Assembly: GCA_001919715.1 (NCBI GenBank)
Contig: MNIJ01000229.1
Span: 1 to 32,696, forward strand
Reading direction: 5' to 3'
DNA length: 32,696 bases
Source: Acidobacteria bacterium 13_1_20CM_58_21
GTDB lineage: Bacteria; Acidobacteriota; Terriglobia; Acidiferrales; UBA7541
The notes beneath the pieces are model-generated. The model searched no databases and was not told the origin of the DNA. It saw nothing but the letters and a program-made list of their open reading frames with translations. Made by a program: the position numbers and the translations under genes. Shown here piece by piece: positions 8,957-32,696 of this stretch (the stretch's first letter is position 1; each line of letters starts with the position of its first letter).

Positions 8957-9628
8957 CTATTGCGGATCTTGCTGTCGCGCGGTTTGTTGCTGGGGCGGTT
9001 GTCCCGCTCCTCGCGGTTGTCCACGGCGCTGCTGCCAGCGGCCCTGGCCTTGACCATTCCCGAGCCGTGCCCACTGGCCCATCTGGGGACTCTGCTGTTT
9101 CATTTCCGCCAGCGCTTCCTTGGCAGCTTTGGCGCTCGCTGCACGGGTCGCTGCCTGAGTTTCACGACCGATCTTGGGCATCTCGGCGGCGACTCTCTGT
9201 CCCAGGGGCGAGCCGTAAAACTGCAGCAACCCTTTGATTTCCTCATCCGTGAAGTGCTTGTCGTACACCGCTACGATTTGATCCGTTAGCTGGTTGACGT
9301 CGAATTTCTTCTGGCAGCTGGCGGCGAAGGCATTTACAAACGCCTGGCCTTTGTCGTTGTTGGGCAAGGTGGCGAGTACTTTTTCCCGGGACTGTTGGAT
9401 GGCCGTGTTCTCGCCGTCTTCTACGAGCTCCCGCGCGCCGACGAGCTCCATCAGCGAACGAATGTCCGCTTCTTTCGCCGGGTCAACGGGGGAATTTGCT
9501 TGTGGAAGCGCTGTGTTGCCGAGGGCCGTGCCTGGCGGGACAGCTTGCGCGGGATTCCGCGATGCTCCCTGAATCACCAGGAAAAAAGTTCCAACGTAAA
9601 TAATGACCAGTGCAAGGACCGCCTTCAT
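8957..9628 (-). CDS. DUF2059-containing exported or membrane-anchored protein
   Basis: The 223-residue protein opens with a hydrophobic signal/anchor (MKAVLALVIIYVGTFFLVIQ), followed by a helical domain with the DUF2059 pattern: FTDEEIKGLLQFYGSPLGQR and then repeated Ala/Lys-rich helices. The C-terminal 45 residues are Gln/Gly/Arg/Pro-rich and probably disordered. A good ribosome site, GGAGG, lies 5 nt before ATG 9628. The function of DUF2059 proteins is unknown. The gene converges on the TamB-like gene with a 30-bp gap and diverges from the permease gene. Confidence 0.8.
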   Translation of the reverse strand: MKAVLALVIIYVGTFFLVIQGASRNPAQAVPPGTALGNTALPQANSPVDPAKEADIRSLMELVGARELVEDGENTAIQQSREKVLATLPNNDKGQAFVNAFAASCQKKFDVNQLTDQIVAVYDKHFTDEEIKGLLQFYGSPLGQRVAAEMPKIGRETQAATRAASAKAAKEALAEMKQQSPQMGQWARLGNGQGQGRWQQRRGQPRGAGQPPQQQTARQQDPQ

Positions 9629-9686
9629 GACTGCCTCCGTGGCCGCTTCGCTCGTGTTTGCGCCACGACACCGATTCTAGGAACAG

Positions 9687-9705
9687 CCGTCGCGCGGCGC
9701 GACGG
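9687..9705. repeat. Perfect inverted repeat in a divergent promoter region
   Basis: CCGTCGCGC and GCGCGACGG flank a single central G. It lies between the divergent DUF2059 and permease genes, so it may be an operator for one or both; as RNA it could also form a hairpin with a larger loop. No known regulator site is recognised. Confidence 0.5.
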
Positions 9706-9775
9706 TTTCCGAGGACAGTCGTGCCGCGTCGTTCACTGGCCTAACGTTCAGGCCCGGGAACAGGTGATGAATTTC

Positions 9776-9784
9776 TGTTACGAT
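9776..9784 (+). promoter_or_regulatory. Extended -10 promoter element of the permease gene
   Basis: TGT-TACGAT has the TGn extended -10 layout. Its last base is 8 nt before ATG 9793, and no Shine-Dalgarno sequence is present, so transcription probably starts at or next to the start codon (leaderless). No convincing -35 is seen, as is common with extended -10 promoters. Confidence 0.45.
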
Positions 9785-9792
9785 GCCTGCCC

Positions 9793-11265
9793 ATGCGCAA
9801 AACGGAAATGCCCGGCAGCGCGTCTCTGGGAGCTCCTGATCCGGCGGCAATTGTTGAGCGCGAGGCGGGCCTCCATCAAAACCTCCCCTCGCGACAGGTG
9901 GCCATGATCGGGCTAGGCAGCACGATCGGAACGGGTTTGTTTCTTGGCAGCGCCATTGCTGTGAAGCTGGCGGGCCCCGCCGTGATTCTCAGCTTTCTGG
10001 GCGGATCCCTGATTGCGCTCACGGTGATGTGGGCGCTAGCAGAAATGACCGCCGAGCACCCCGCTGCGGGCTCCTTCGGCCTGCACGCGGAGATTTATCT
10101 TCATCCCTGGGCGGGGTTTGCTATCCGCTACACGTACTGGCTGTGTCTGGTGGTGATTGTTGGTAGCGAAGTAGTGGCCGCAGCCATCTACTGCAAAGTC
10201 TGGTTTCCTGGTATTCCCTTGTGGATGTGGGTGGCGGCCTTTTCCGCCGCGATAATTTACTTGAACACCGTCAGCATCCAGAACTTCGGGCGATTCGAGT
10301 ACTGGTTGGCAATGATCAAGGTATTGACCATCGCGGTTTTCCTGGTGCTGGGAACGGCGCTTCTGCTGGGCATCGGATTCCCGCGCATCGGGGCCGTCAA
10401 CTACAGCGGTTTCTTTTCCAGGGGCTGGACCGGTGTGCTGCTCGGAATCACCATGGCGGTCTTCAGTTTTCTGGGCATCGAGGTGGTGGCCGCCACCGCC
10501 GGCGAAGCGGCAGAACCACGAGTCGCCGTGCCGCAGGCGCTTCGCCGCACTCTGTTCTTCCTGGTGCTGTTCTATCTCGGGGGCCTGACGCTGGTGGTCG
10601 GAATCGTGCCATGGAATCAAATCGGTCTTGGCGAGAGTCCCTTTGTCCGCGTTTTCCAGATCGTGGGCATTCCCGCCGCGGGACATGTGATGAATTTTGT
10701 TGTGCTGACGGCGGCGCTTTCGAGCGCCATGTGCAATCTCTATTTCACATCCAGATTGCTCTTCTCTCTGGCTCGCGGCGGCTATGCGCCGGCGGCACTC
10801 GGCCGCTTGAGCAGACTTGGCATGCCGGTATCCGCGGTGCTGGCCTCCAGCGCCGGAATGGTCGTGGCGGTAATGTTATCCCATTTCCTCGAGGCCACGG
10901 CCTTCGTCTTCATGATCGGCGTGGCGTTCTTCGGCGGGCCCTTCATCTGGATCATGATTCTAATCACCCATCTGGCGTTCCGGCGGGCCAACGCTGGCGG
11001 GGCAAAACCGGTATTGCGCTTCGCGCCGTCCGGTCCGTGGAGCTCGCTGTCCGGCCTTGTTGCTCTTCTCGGGGTCCTCATCTCCACATGGTGGGTCCCC
11101 GGCTTTCGTGTCACGCTGCTGGCCGGGCTTCCTTGGCTGGTCTTTATCACGCTGTGCTATGGGGTTTGGTCACGCGCGAATCGGAATAACCGTGCAGCGT
11201 GCCATTCGCAAGGAGTAAGCACCGGGGTTTCCACACTGCCAAAGAGTTTTCAAAGCCCAGAATAA
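9793..11265 (+). CDS. APC-superfamily amino-acid permease (AAT type)
   Basis: This 490-residue inner-membrane protein has about twelve hydrophobic segments. The first carries the APC substrate-binding signature MIGLGSTIGTGLFLGS at about residues 38-53, preceded by a hydrophilic N-terminus ending LPSRQV. Further features typical of the AAT (GabP/CycA/LysP-like) group are a conserved acidic site around FSFLGIEVVAATAGEAAEP in the sixth segment and a PRVAVPQA loop. It should import an amino acid or amine by proton symport; the substrate cannot be told. The next gene is a kynureninase-like enzyme 234 bp downstream, so a tryptophan/kynurenine-related substrate is possible but unproven. No ribosome site is visible; see the extended -10 just before the start. 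Confidence 0.9.
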   Translation: MRKTEMPGSASLGAPDPAAIVEREAGLHQNLPSRQVAMIGLGSTIGTGLFLGSAIAVKLAGPAVILSFLGGSLIALTVMWALAEMTAEHPAAGSFGLHAEIYLHPWAGFAIRYTYWLCLVVIVGSEVVAAAIYCKVWFPGIPLWMWVAAFSAAIIYLNTVSIQNFGRFEYWLAMIKVLTIAVFLVLGTALLLGIGFPRIGAVNYSGFFSRGWTGVLLGITMAVFSFLGIEVVAATAGEAAEPRVAVPQALRRTLFFLVLFYLGGLTLVVGIVPWNQIGLGESPFVRVFQIVGIPAAGHVMNFVVLTAALSSAMCNLYFTSRLLFSLARGGYAPAALGRLSRLGMPVSAVLASSAGMVVAVMLSHFLEATAFVFMIGVAFFGGPFIWIMILITHLAFRRANAGGAKPVLRFAPSGPWSSLSGLVALLGVLISTWWVPGFRVTLLAGLPWLVFITLCYGVWSRANRNNRAACHSQGVSTGVSTLPKSFQSPE

Positions 11266-28511: not shown

Positions 28512-29144
28512 CTAACCTCGGCTGTCGGTCGTGGGAATTTGTGACGGGTAGGCTGTTTCAACTAGCAAATCCTTAATCGTCTCGCTTACTGTGCGCGGAA
28601 ATCGCAGTGCGTAGGTTCGAAGCTTGGCCGGGTTCAGAAACTGCAAATGAAGTTCGTCTAAGGGTGTCGGGAGTCCTTCTTGGCGATTTAGGTAGATCCA
28701 ATCCAGTAGCGCCTTCTCAGGTTCCGCGATGAGATATTTGTTGTAACGAGTAGCTTTTTCCTCATAGCCCCAATAGAGTGCAGGAGAGATCTTTCTATAC
28801 ACAATAGTGACAGACTTGCTTCGGAAAGCCTGCGGATAACCGGGCGTGACACAAATCAATACCGATGGATTTTGACTTATGATGCCTCGCTCAACCAAGG
28901 CGGACTCAAGAGAAATGTATGAACGAGGCCGCAGAACGTTTACGAGATCGCGAGGTGAAAAATGCTGATTGAGGTGGTTGATGTAAATCTTTGTTGAAAC
29001 GCGTTCGACCAACCCCTGTGCCTCATATCTGCGCAAAGCATTGCGTACAACACGTTCGGACAACTGGTATTTGCGCGCTATATTGTCCGTGCGCACGATG
29101 CAATTTTGTCGTGCTTCTTTCGTCAGAATGGTCGTCCAATTCAT
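28512..29144 (-). CDS. AbiEi-family (type IV) antitoxin / transcriptional regulator
   Basis: 210 residues from ATG 29144, chosen because GGAAGG lies 7 nt upstream and the start overlaps the toxin-frame stop by ATGA; an ATG at 29165 is also open. An N-terminal winged helix (CIVRTDNIARKYQLSERVVRNALRRYEAQGL) is followed by the AbiEi C-terminal region, including YISLESALVERGII and the signature AEPEKALLDWIYL. AbiEi antitoxins repress their operon and neutralise an AbiEii nucleotidyltransferase. Unlike the canonical order, it lies downstream of the toxin gene. The frame is intact although the toxin gene is not. Confidence 0.85.
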   Translation of the reverse strand: MNWTTILTKEARQNCIVRTDNIARKYQLSERVVRNALRRYEAQGLVERVSTKIYINHLNQHFSPRDLVNVLRPRSYISLESALVERGIISQNPSVLICVTPGYPQAFRSKSVTIVYRKISPALYWGYEEKATRYNKYLIAEPEKALLDWIYLNRQEGLPTPLDELHLQFLNPAKLRTYALRFPRTVSETIKDLLVETAYPSQIPTTDSRG

Positions 29145-29939
29145 TGCCGTACCTTCCCGGGCCAATGAGAGAACACGATTCGTAGCGAATCGCGGATAGT
29201 CTCGAATTCGTTTTTGGCTAGGTCGTCAAAAACGGCTTGTGGTAAAACTGGGCGGAGCTCGACTGTGCAGAGTTTGGCATCGATGTTTTGAATCCGAGTT
29301 TCGATGCTTTCTCTTTCGATCTCCTTCATTGTGATGAAGTCCTCTAGGTGTGCTTGAAGATTGTTGGCCAGCTGCGCTCCACGCGTGAGTAGGAGATGGA
29401 TATCGAAGGCGTCCCTGGCTTTCAGCATGACGGCGACCAAGAAAGGTCTCACATTTCTGAAACAGGAGATAGTTCGCGCTGGGAGTGGCGACGATTTTTT
29501 CTGGAGCACTGGCAATTGCCTTTTTGACGACCTGGGTTTCCAAGACAGTCCCGCCGATTCTGGTCAGATCGATGCTGAATAGCGGCTTTTCATTAGCAAT
29601 GACCCACTGCTTGACGAAGTCAGGCCCGTCGATATCTTTGCGGAATTCCAACTGACCGAGGCCGAGAGCCTCGGCAATTGGCTGGATGCCGGAACGAACG
29701 GCAGCTTGGATTTCTTCTGGTCTTGGGATCTGTGATGGTGAGGCGAGCAGGTCCAAGTCTCGGGACAATCGGGGGCTCTCATAGAAAAGTACGAGGGTAG
29801 CGCCACCAAATAGGATGAAATGGTCGGGGAACGAGCCGAAAAGGGCCGCCGCACTTTCCTCCATAAGGACGAGGATTTCGGCTTCTAATTGCTGGAAGCC
29901 CCGTTCTTTGTACCGATCTATTCTGGCTTGCAAGTTCAT
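29141..29939 (-). pseudogene. AbiEii-like nucleotidyltransferase toxin, frameshifted
   Basis: From ATG 29939 the protein opens MNLQARIDRYKERGFQQLEA and carries the nucleotidyltransferase core FGGATLVLFYESPRLSRDLD, with the GG motif and a D-x-D pair. The frame then fails near 29429. Removing one base there joins FLGRR to MLKARDAFDIHLLLTRG in the next frame, which continues to the stop at 29141. Both halves are well preserved apart from this single shift, so it is a recent inactivation or a sequencing error. Intact AbiEii toxins inactivate tRNA or other targets by nucleotide transfer. As written it would give a truncated product of about 240 residues with a garbled end. Confidence 0.8.
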
Positions 29940-29941
29940 GA

Positions 29942-30011
29942 TTGCCAAAAATACCATATTCTGTGATAAACACAACTATATCTTATAGCATAGTTGCCAA
30001 AAGTACCATAT
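29942..30011. repeat. Direct repeat pair in the AbiE-type promoter region
   Basis: TTGCCAAAAATACCATAT (29942-29959) and TTGCCAAAAGTACCATAT (29994-30011) differ at one base and are 52 bp apart. They sit just upstream of the toxin start. AbiEi-type antitoxins bind repeats in their own promoters, so these are likely operators. The region is notably AT-rich. No confident -35/-10 pair was picked. Confidence 0.65.
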
Positions 30012-30952: not shown

Positions 30953-31027
30953 TGGTGCCGGCGGGGGGAATCGAACCCACGGCCTAGGGATTATGAGACC
31001 CTCGCTCTTCCACTGAGCTACGCCGGC
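30953..31027 (-). tRNA. tRNA-Met (anticodon CAT)
   Basis: 75 nt including an encoded CCA. Acceptor stem GCCGGCG pairs with CGCCGGC. The D stem is GCTC/GAGC. The anticodon loop is CTCATAA, giving CAT, and the T arm contains GGTTCGATTCC. The anticodon stem has one U-U at its last pair. CAT could also be a lysidine-modified Ile tRNA or an initiator; the absence of the initiator GGG/CCC stem and the GGGTCTCATAATCCC context favour elongator Met. It is preceded by a strong promoter. Confidence 0.93.
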
Positions 31028-31400: not shown

Positions 31401-31426
31401 TTGACATTGGTCCCATAAGATATACT
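31401..31426 (+). promoter_or_regulatory. Likely promoter of the repeat-peptide operon
   Basis: TTGACA (31401-31406) and TATACT (31421-31426), with a short 14-bp spacer. GGAGG (31451-31455) gives a clear ribosome site before ATG 31460. The spacing is below optimum, so the exact elements are uncertain. Confidence 0.4.
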
Positions 31427-31459
31427 CTTTCCGGGGTTGTTTCTTACCTCGGAGGCACC

Positions 31460-31684
31460 ATGTCACGTAAACTAGCGGTTATCTTCCTCGCCATGCTCGT
31501 ACTGGTGGGGGCAATGAGTCTGAAGACGATAGTCGTCACTCATGGTAGTAGTAATAGCTCCATAATCATGGCGAACGGTGGGGCACCACAGCCGCCGACA
31601 CCATGGAAGAATGGTGGAGCGCCGCAGCCACCAACGCCTTGGAAGAACGGTGGAGCGCCGCAACCGCCGACGCCTTGGAAGTAA
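31460..31684 (+). CDS. Small exported peptide with three 12-residue C-terminal repeats
   Basis: 74 residues. An N-terminal hydrophobic signal or anchor (MSRKLAVIFLAMLVLVGAM) is followed by a short Ser/Thr/Asn linker and then three exact tandem copies of NGGAPQPPTPWK to the C-terminus. The three 36-bp DNA copies (31574-31681) differ only at synonymous positions, so selection seems to keep the peptide constant. A strong ribosome site precedes ATG 31460. No domain is recognised. Possibilities include a cell-wall or envelope peptide, a secreted signal, or a multi-core precursor peptide. The next gene, 53 bp downstream on the same strand, encodes a membrane protein. Confidence 0.8.
   Translation: MSRKLAVIFLAMLVLVGAMSLKTIVVTHGSSNSSIIMANGGAPQPPTPWKNGGAPQPPTPWKNGGAPQPPTPWK
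31574..31681 (+). repeat. Three tandem 36-bp coding repeats
   Basis: Units at 31574-31609, 31610-31645 and 31646-31681 encode the same 12 residues, NGGAPQPPTPWK. Nucleotide differences are at third codon positions (for example GGG/GGA, CAG/CAA, CCA/CCT). Confidence 0.95.
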
Positions 31685-31737
31685 TCCGCTGAACTGATCG
31701 TTCGCGGGAAGGACCGGGGCGCGGCAAGGATGGTTTC

Positions 31738-32436
31738 GTGCTTGGTCCTTACGAATATGTTGTCTGGCTGATGTGCACTCTGCTGGAGACAGCAGTAGTG
31801 GTGTGTGCATACAAGAAGGACGCGCTTCGGCGCTATATCCTTCTGAATGTGTACATGGCTGCATCCGTGGTGTTCAGCATTGCCCGCTTCAACATCCTCA
31901 ACCACTATGGTTTTACGTCCAAGGAATATCTCTACTTCTATTATTATTCGGACGCCCTGCTCACCATTGTCCTTTATTTTGCCTTGATGAGCCTCTATTC
32001 GCACATCTTCAGTGATTTGAAAGCCGAGCGGTACATCAGGATCGGGACGCTAATCCTATTTTCCGGCACGGCATTGTTTTCCTACGCCGTGGTTCAGCAG
32101 TCCAGTTCCAAGCTGGTGACACATTTCGTAGTGGAGCTTTCCCAGAATCTCTACTTTGTCGGTCTCGTCCTGACTTACATCCTGTGGGCCGCCGTGATGA
32201 AAATGCGTGAAACGCGCACGCGCTTGATTCAACTGGTACTCTCGATGGGTGTGTATTTCAGCCTGTTTGCGGCCAACTTTGCGTTGCAAAACCTTTATCA
32301 AAGCCGCGGCAATTTCTTTGAATTTCTGACGCCCTTGTTCGGCTGCTTCCTCCCGTTGTCGTGGGCTTATACCTTCTGGCACCTTCCAGAAGATGCCCGT
32401 ATCGTGCCTTCCAGGCTCGCCGTGGTGCCCCGATGA
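31738..32436 (+). CDS. Unnamed multi-pass membrane protein of the repeat-peptide operon
   Basis: 232 residues from GTG 31738, with AAGGA 7 nt upstream. About seven hydrophobic segments are seen, with conserved-looking features YLYFYYYSDALLTIVLYFAL, FVVELSQNLYFVGLVLTY and LPLSWAYTFWHLPEDAR. It belongs to a recurrent acidobacterial hypothetical family, to my recollection, without an assigned function. The N-outside/seven-helix layout would suit a sensor or transporter, but no active-site motif is visible. Its stop overlaps the next ATG by ATGA, so the two are coupled. Confidence 0.85.
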   Translation: MLGPYEYVVWLMCTLLETAVVVCAYKKDALRRYILLNVYMAASVVFSIARFNILNHYGFTSKEYLYFYYYSDALLTIVLYFALMSLYSHIFSDLKAERYIRIGTLILFSGTALFSYAVVQQSSSKLVTHFVVELSQNLYFVGLVLTYILWAAVMKMRETRTRLIQLVLSMGVYFSLFAANFALQNLYQSRGNFFEFLTPLFGCFLPLSWAYTFWHLPEDARIVPSRLAVVPR

Positions 32437-32696
32437 TGGCCGGGGTCATTTTCGTTTTCTCGGCAGCGGCGTTGTTGCAGTTTTTCATCTCTTATTGCCG
32501 CTCGCTGATCGCCGCGTCCTCGAAGCAGGTTCTCTCGGCCGAGGTAAAGGACGTTACCGGCATCCAGAGAATTGCTTCCGGTGACGATTTCAAACGGGTC
32601 ATGCAGCTTCTGCAGCTCTGTCCGGAGCGCCCGGAAGACCGCAATTCCGTCCAGGCGATCGGTGCCTATTTCAGCCTCTTGAATTTCGTGCGCTCG
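32433..32696 (+). CDS. Unnamed protein with N-terminal membrane helix (partial, runs off the right edge)
   Basis: At least 88 residues from ATG 32433, overlapping the previous stop. It opens with a hydrophobic segment (MMAGVIFVFSAAALLQFFIS) and continues as a soluble, helical region (DFKRVMQLLQLCPERPED). No stop is reached in the window. The family is not recognised. It is the third gene of the repeat-peptide operon. Confidence 0.8.
   Translation, partial: MMAGVIFVFSAAALLQFFISYCRSLIAASSKQVLSAEVKDVTGIQRIASGDDFKRVMQLLQLCPERPEDRNSVQAIGAYFSLLNFVRS

Follow-up and report, generated by a model that had tools for sequence, protein, structure and literature searches.

A multi-core peptide gene linked to a seven-helix membrane protein in Acidobacteriota: a candidate peptide-signalling cassette

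What might a bacterium do with a small exported-type peptide whose gene ends in three identical units and stands directly before the gene for a seven-helix membrane protein? We asked this of a locus in the 32,696-nt stretch referred to here as the window, which is the whole contig MNIJ01000229.1 of a 63%-complete MAG (Acidobacteria bacterium 13_1_20CM_58_21) and which cuts off the third gene of the locus at its end. A first-pass annotation, made from the letters alone, had left the peptide as a secreted signal, an envelope-binding peptide or a multi-core precursor.

A linked triad of genes

The locus comprises the following features.

31401 to 31428, + strand: promoter-like element TTGACA-N16-TACTCT, read from the sequence and unlisted by a generic scan
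31451 to 31455, + strand: ribosome-binding site GGAGG, read from the sequence directly 5' of the ATG
31460 to 31684, + strand: 74-aa exported-type peptide precursor (ORF, homologues and silent-site pattern)
31460 to 31513, + strand: signal-peptide-like N-terminus, aa 1-18, with a possible cut after VGA (residue pattern)
31514 to 31573, + strand: spacer, aa 19-38, with MA just before the first core (alignment of relatives)
31574 to 31609, + strand: core unit 1, NGGAPQPPTPWK, aa 39-50 (ORF translation)
31610 to 31645, + strand: core unit 2, NGGAPQPPTPWK, aa 51-62 (ORF translation)
31646 to 31681, + strand: core unit 3, NGGAPQPPTPWK, aa 63-74 (ORF translation)
31738 to 32436, + strand: 232-aa seven-helix membrane protein (7TM), a putative receptor, with a GTG start (ORF and AlphaFold2, AF2)
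32433 to 32696, + strand: third gene, truncated, encoding an N-terminal membrane helix and a helical domain (ATGA overlap, homologues and AF2)

The 74-aa peptide consists of MSRKLAVIFLAMLVLVGAMSLKTIVVTHGSSNSSIIMA followed by three NGGAPQPPTPWK units; its signal-peptide cut site was placed by eye, from basic and then hydrophobic residues with small residues at -3/-1, a pattern kept in relatives. The peptide gene is separated from the 7TM gene by 53 nt, and the ATG of the third gene (32433) lies within the ATGA of the 7TM stop, a 4-nt overlap in keeping with the translational coupling of these two genes noted in the first-pass annotation. TTGACA-N16-TAGAGT-like elements stand about 33 nt 5' of the peptide start in most loci of the genus, and CGGAGGCAC precedes that start in most relatives. 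The spacer of this promoter is often an inverted repeat, such as TCCCTATTCATAGGGA (L044, L047, L071, L074, L076, L079), as if a regulator might bind there. Further upstream in the window, the C-terminal piece of a phage integrase (PF00589, 30672-31027) ends at a tRNA-Met gene (30953-31027, - strand) that was the only match in an Rfam scan; this remnant directly 5' of the cassette likely marks an old integration site. An AbiEii-type nucleotidyltransferase (PF08843, E 1.4e-6; 28512-29975, - strand) adjoined by an HTH protein resembles a type IV toxin-antitoxin pair.

A protein search located the peptide in 56 of the 95 genomes of the same order, and the 7TM is present in 72 of them. With the 7TM alignment as query, a scan of 84,980 species genomes yielded 63 loci, many from "gp2" or Ca. 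Acidiferrum/Acidiferrales MAGs, and this narrow scan returned only Acidobacteriota loci if L113 (CAJCHZ010000062.1) is counted as such. The record of L113 is titled Betaproteobacteria bacterium; it holds an acidobacterial cassette, matches a contig of order member G038 and is probably a mislabelled MAG. The best relative, L090, has a 7TM that is 97% identical. For 57 of 59 peptide genes a 7TM profile match lies at most 1.6 kb downstream, and in the other two cases the contig ends 14 or 34 nt from the peptide gene, so that the pairing of peptide and adjacent membrane protein is far tighter than could be seen from one locus. The third gene lies 3' of the 7TM gene nearly everywhere among relatives. 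The triad occurs in two settings, before a Zn-ribbon/RDD-like gene in the genus and before tilS-hpt-ftsH in other genera (names that are our reading of the sequences, not profile matches), and it stays intact while its surroundings change. At L034 (reverse orientation, 9615-10635), the triad is followed by a gene for a zinc ribbon plus an RDD-like membrane protein. Clustering the neighbours of 58 loci revealed no further gene conserved beside the triad in all settings, and no conserved known regulator or kinase. Homologous loci lacking the peptide gene, which the first-pass annotation had named as the finding that would speak against its reading, occur only in the form of a few second 7TM paralogues. 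Under the filters used, no peptide was visible at the order loci L235-L238, L240 and L254.

Uniformity of the repeated cores

Of the two tandem arrays that TRF reported in the window, the one at 31573-31681 (36-nt unit, 3 copies) is by a wide margin the stronger, and the ORF at 31460-31684 contains exactly three NGGAPQPPTPWK units whose DNA differences are all synonymous, as had been noticed at first reading. An exact 9-aa internal repeat is found in 43 of 58 homologous peptide ORFs, compared with 12 of the 5104 remaining ORFs (40-150 aa) at these loci. Across the genus the N-terminus and spacer of the peptide are similar and the cores differ from species to species; variants include NGGAPQPPTPW, NGGAPAPPVPW, NGGAPLPPNPW, NGSAPVPPVPW, NGSSPAPITPY, NGTGPVPNPPW, WGGAPLPPTPW, NTSGPVPPSPW, STGNPVPILPD and IGPGTPP, in a list that is open-ended. 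The comparison of repeat number and conservation among homologues that the first-pass annotation had proposed gave one to eight core copies per gene (1-8, some genes being single-core), with the cores of any one gene identical or almost so. Linkers, where present, are variable while the cores stay constant: LI and RT in L114, LV and LA in L133, A or VA in the eight-copy L138, ISLLNSPVNL in L084, and SSAK, TNAK and SNAK in L127. At L123 (the same locus as L243), just upstream of 5001, the peptide frame is broken after the export signal with the 7TM and third genes intact, which reflects either decay or an assembly error.

Summed over the three pairs, the window's copies show 18 synonymous and 0 non-synonymous differences (pS 0.67, pN 0). 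When imperfect copies are counted as well, 44 genes have repeated units, and their within-gene means are pS 0.57 and pN 0.025; picking the unit boundaries from the repeated sequence lowers pN somewhat, but the contrast with pS is still large. In some genes (L044, L047) serine is switched between TCN and AGY codons among units. Between species the cores have a higher pN, up to 0.25 and often about 0.15, at similar silent divergence, and a core change reaches all copies together. The selection on the peptide that had been proposed from the window alone is therefore borne out in numbers. Codon identity is 0.47 for same-numbered copies across species and 0.42 for copies inside one gene; since identity across species is at least that within a gene, the copies are old. 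Recent homogenisation as the sole cause of repeat identity was rejected because silent sites within a gene differ about as much as between species. Amino-acid changes have spread to all copies of a gene and the DNA differences among copies have not been erased; partial gene conversion may contribute to this uniformity, and, judged from these codon patterns, selection for one uniform core is needed. Such selection is a prediction of a processed peptide read by a single partner, which would require all copies to remain alike.

The selection and linkage data would also fit with an exported, possibly uncleaved, multivalent Pro-rich tail whose copies engage the 7TM or a partner in the cell wall by avidity, with no signalling. 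Repeats of the PxPP type commonly serve as binding motifs, the signal anchor might escape cleavage and the cores could be active without being cut out. We consider such a structural or envelope ligand unlikely, given that the cores change fast between species while the 7TM and spacer change slowly, that linkers vary freely and that single-core genes exist. A fast-changing core in a small exported peptide next to a membrane protein would also suit an antimicrobial with its membrane immunity protein, and multi-copy precursors do exist among antimicrobial peptides, as in the apidaecins. The cores here, however, are short, neutral and Pro-rich, with no cationic or membrane-active character, and, across most genomes of the order, the genes keep to conserved chromosomal places (at tilS-hpt-ftsH or the Zn-ribbon gene), which makes an antimicrobial role very improbable.

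The seven-helix protein and its co-translated partner

An AlphaFold2 model built from 60 natural sequences (pLDDT 82) has seven helices, at residues 4-26, 34-57, 62-93, 97-121, 126-156, 161-186 and 188-215, the same count as in the first-pass annotation. The solved structures nearest to this model were GPCRs and microbial rhodopsins, with a Foldseek best E of 0.04 that is not significant; VIA gave Z up to 14.5 (TAS1R2 7TM, rmsd 4.2, 215 residues aligned) and 13.6 each for LYCHOS and a designed GPCR-like fold. Seven-helix bundles match one another easily in structure searches, and for an all-helical protein these model-based matches point to a similar arrangement and fall short of demonstrating homology. 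An N-out/C-in orientation is suggested by the basic residues, which are concentrated in loops 1-2, 3-4 and 5-6 and in the tail. The modelled bundle is shared with microbial rhodopsins and other 7TM bundles, but similarity to rhodopsins was not found in sequence, and a retinal protein was ruled out because helix 7 (188-215) has no lysine in the window protein and no conserved lysine in relatives. Pfam and NCBIfam scans of the 232-aa protein returned no domain, and no kinase domain among them.

The full third protein is about 133 aa long in relatives and has a single N-terminal membrane helix followed by a helical domain; the AF2 model of the L090 homologue is all helical (pLDDT 81), and C63 and C108 are invariant. 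A fold search with this protein gave no match, and neither Pfam nor NCBIfam has a domain for it.

If the core is read by the 7TM, then the two should change together. Core distance correlates with 7TM distance when the third protein is controlled for (partial Mantel r 0.29-0.43, p 0.001-0.002, in every subset), in a test that removes phylogeny incompletely and is imperfect for related species; with the 7TM controlled for, core distance shows no clear correlation with third-protein distance. Within the 7TM there was no periplasm-side coevolution signal, the outer and inner halves tracking the core equally. Tight 1:1 linkage and coevolution would also be expected if the 7TM, together with the third protein, were a machine that processes or exports the peptide, the receptor being elsewhere or the product acting on others, and the conserved polar residues E133, Q136 and N137 of helix 5 could serve such a role. 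We regard this as quite improbable: no protease or transporter family was matched, the triad has no ATPase and, as weak evidence, the fold is nearer to receptor bundles than to known membrane proteases.

A candidate signalling system and its spread

Of the three possibilities named at first reading, the evidence favours the multi-core precursor of a secreted signal. We give about an even chance to the locus being a peptide-signalling cassette, in which a multi-core precursor yields a species-specific peptide that is sensed by the 7TM, with the third protein as relay. The small gene would encode a Sec-exported precursor, which signal peptidase and a periplasmic or extracellular protease would cut into copies of a short Pro-rich peptide, at this locus about NGGAPQPPTPW, several copies per precursor giving a higher peptide output. 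The kinase-less, GPCR/rhodopsin-like 7TM would bind the peptide on its periplasmic side and pass its state to the co-translated third protein, which would have its single membrane helix followed by a helical domain on the cytoplasmic side.

The closest parallels are the yeast pheromone/GPCR pairs (P-factor/Mam2 in S. pombe, alpha-factor/Ste2 in S. cerevisiae), in which a short peptide is likewise repeated in tandem in one precursor, copy number varies (4-8 for P-factor in wild S. pombe strains; PMC6342294), the partner has seven helices, and peptide and receptor diversify; here secretion is predicted from the export-type leader. In contrast to the yeast precursors, dibasic (Kex2-type) sites between units are not general here, the linkers being absent, single residues or variable, with KR/KK-like residues in L046 only. 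The system also differs in being bacterial, in encoding the 7TM directly beside the peptide, in its extra third protein and in having no known G protein. With Agr/Com quorum sensing (AgrD/AgrC, ComX/ComP) it shares a gene for a small exported peptide next to one for a polytopic membrane protein, with a core that tracks this partner, but the cassette lacks a receptor histidine kinase (neither the 7TM nor the third protein has such a domain) and a conserved AgrB- or ComQ-like enzyme gene, has several cores per precursor and belongs to a Gram-negative-type phylum. Multi-core RiPP precursors such as those of cyanobactins also combine identical cores with variable linkers, whereas here no modification enzyme is conserved among 58 loci and the leader is of the export type.

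Pfam, NCBIfam and PADLOC held no family match for the peptide, the 7TM or the third protein, a few distant relatives giving no more than sub-threshold noise, and no PADLOC (anti-phage defence) model matched up to E 0.1. A literature search, mostly outside subscription journals and preprints, returned nothing relevant on Acidobacteria peptides or pheromones, and the searched sources thus named no described function, as in the first-pass annotation. We rate the gene system as categorically new, although specialists might, once signalling had been demonstrated, prefer to place it within peptide quorum sensing as a new branch. The phylum Acidobacteriota ranks with the most abundant groups of bacteria in soil, and our searches turned up no description of peptide communication in it. 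A multi-core pheromone-like precursor with a stand-alone 7TM would, if confirmed, add a new type of peptide signalling to those of bacteria, and its likeness to fungal mating factors would have arisen by convergence. Since the cores are legible in genome sequences, synthetic peptides are directly testable. Should the 7TM turn out not to be a receptor, there would still be three linked, unannotated protein families to explain, together with strong protein-level selection for identical repeats.

Profile-profile comparison connected the 7TM of the order, at 95-97% probability, with distant paralogues from other classes, and of 297 genomes sampled from the phylum, 45 had a match to a wide 7TM profile. 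Many of these paralogues adjoin exported small Pro-rich peptides, several with tandem cores of unrelated sequence: three copies of AGPWPFPDDSAGGNIA in L156, five of NMPVFPTPPAVKTA in L160, five of SSIPMSPIPVGRVV in L163, seven of SPHPVPPPAL in L189, eight of KVAFSPMVVPPNPFPQPQPKGNSS in L176 and several of AHGPVRPPGGDGNIV in L187. The source genome itself has two such peptide-7TM pairs on other contigs (L154, L155). The distant-paralogue loci L159, L200, L203, L227 and L228 had no peptide under the filters used, and the third proteins at distant loci showed no detectable homology to that of the order. Tentatively, and with rather more doubt than belief, we propose that these loci represent an undescribed form of bacterial signalling across Acidobacteriota, with multi-core exported Pro-rich pheromones, kinase-less GPCR-like seven-helix receptors, a separate single-helix relay and species-specific cores that coevolve with the receptors.

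In deeper lineages the 7TM gene and a peptide gene, for instance one whose product ends in CCPIPPPPPPCPDC, are divergently oriented; these peptide ORFs were chosen by eye and are weaker evidence. This arrangement bears on whether the peptide could be an arrest-type leader that controls 7TM translation in cis. Secretion-monitoring arrest peptides carry a C-terminal arrest unit behind an export signal, to which the PP-containing cores can be likened, and the PP units here do stand at the C-terminal end, behind an export signal and 53 nt before the 7TM gene. Arrest motifs, however, are fixed and single, whereas the cores vary and repeat, and the divergent orientation in deeper lineages speaks against a leader in cis, so that we hold this explanation to be extremely improbable. 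In one family of the class, represented by near-complete genomes, single-core peptide genes of the PVPTCAPNDPNACG type are often duplicated before the 7TM. Tandem duplication of single-core peptide genes was seen at L205, L206, L207 and L210-L213, and a tandem duplication of the 7TM gene itself at L163 (1476-3025, - strand), all of them in a different family of the class from that of the order's cassette.
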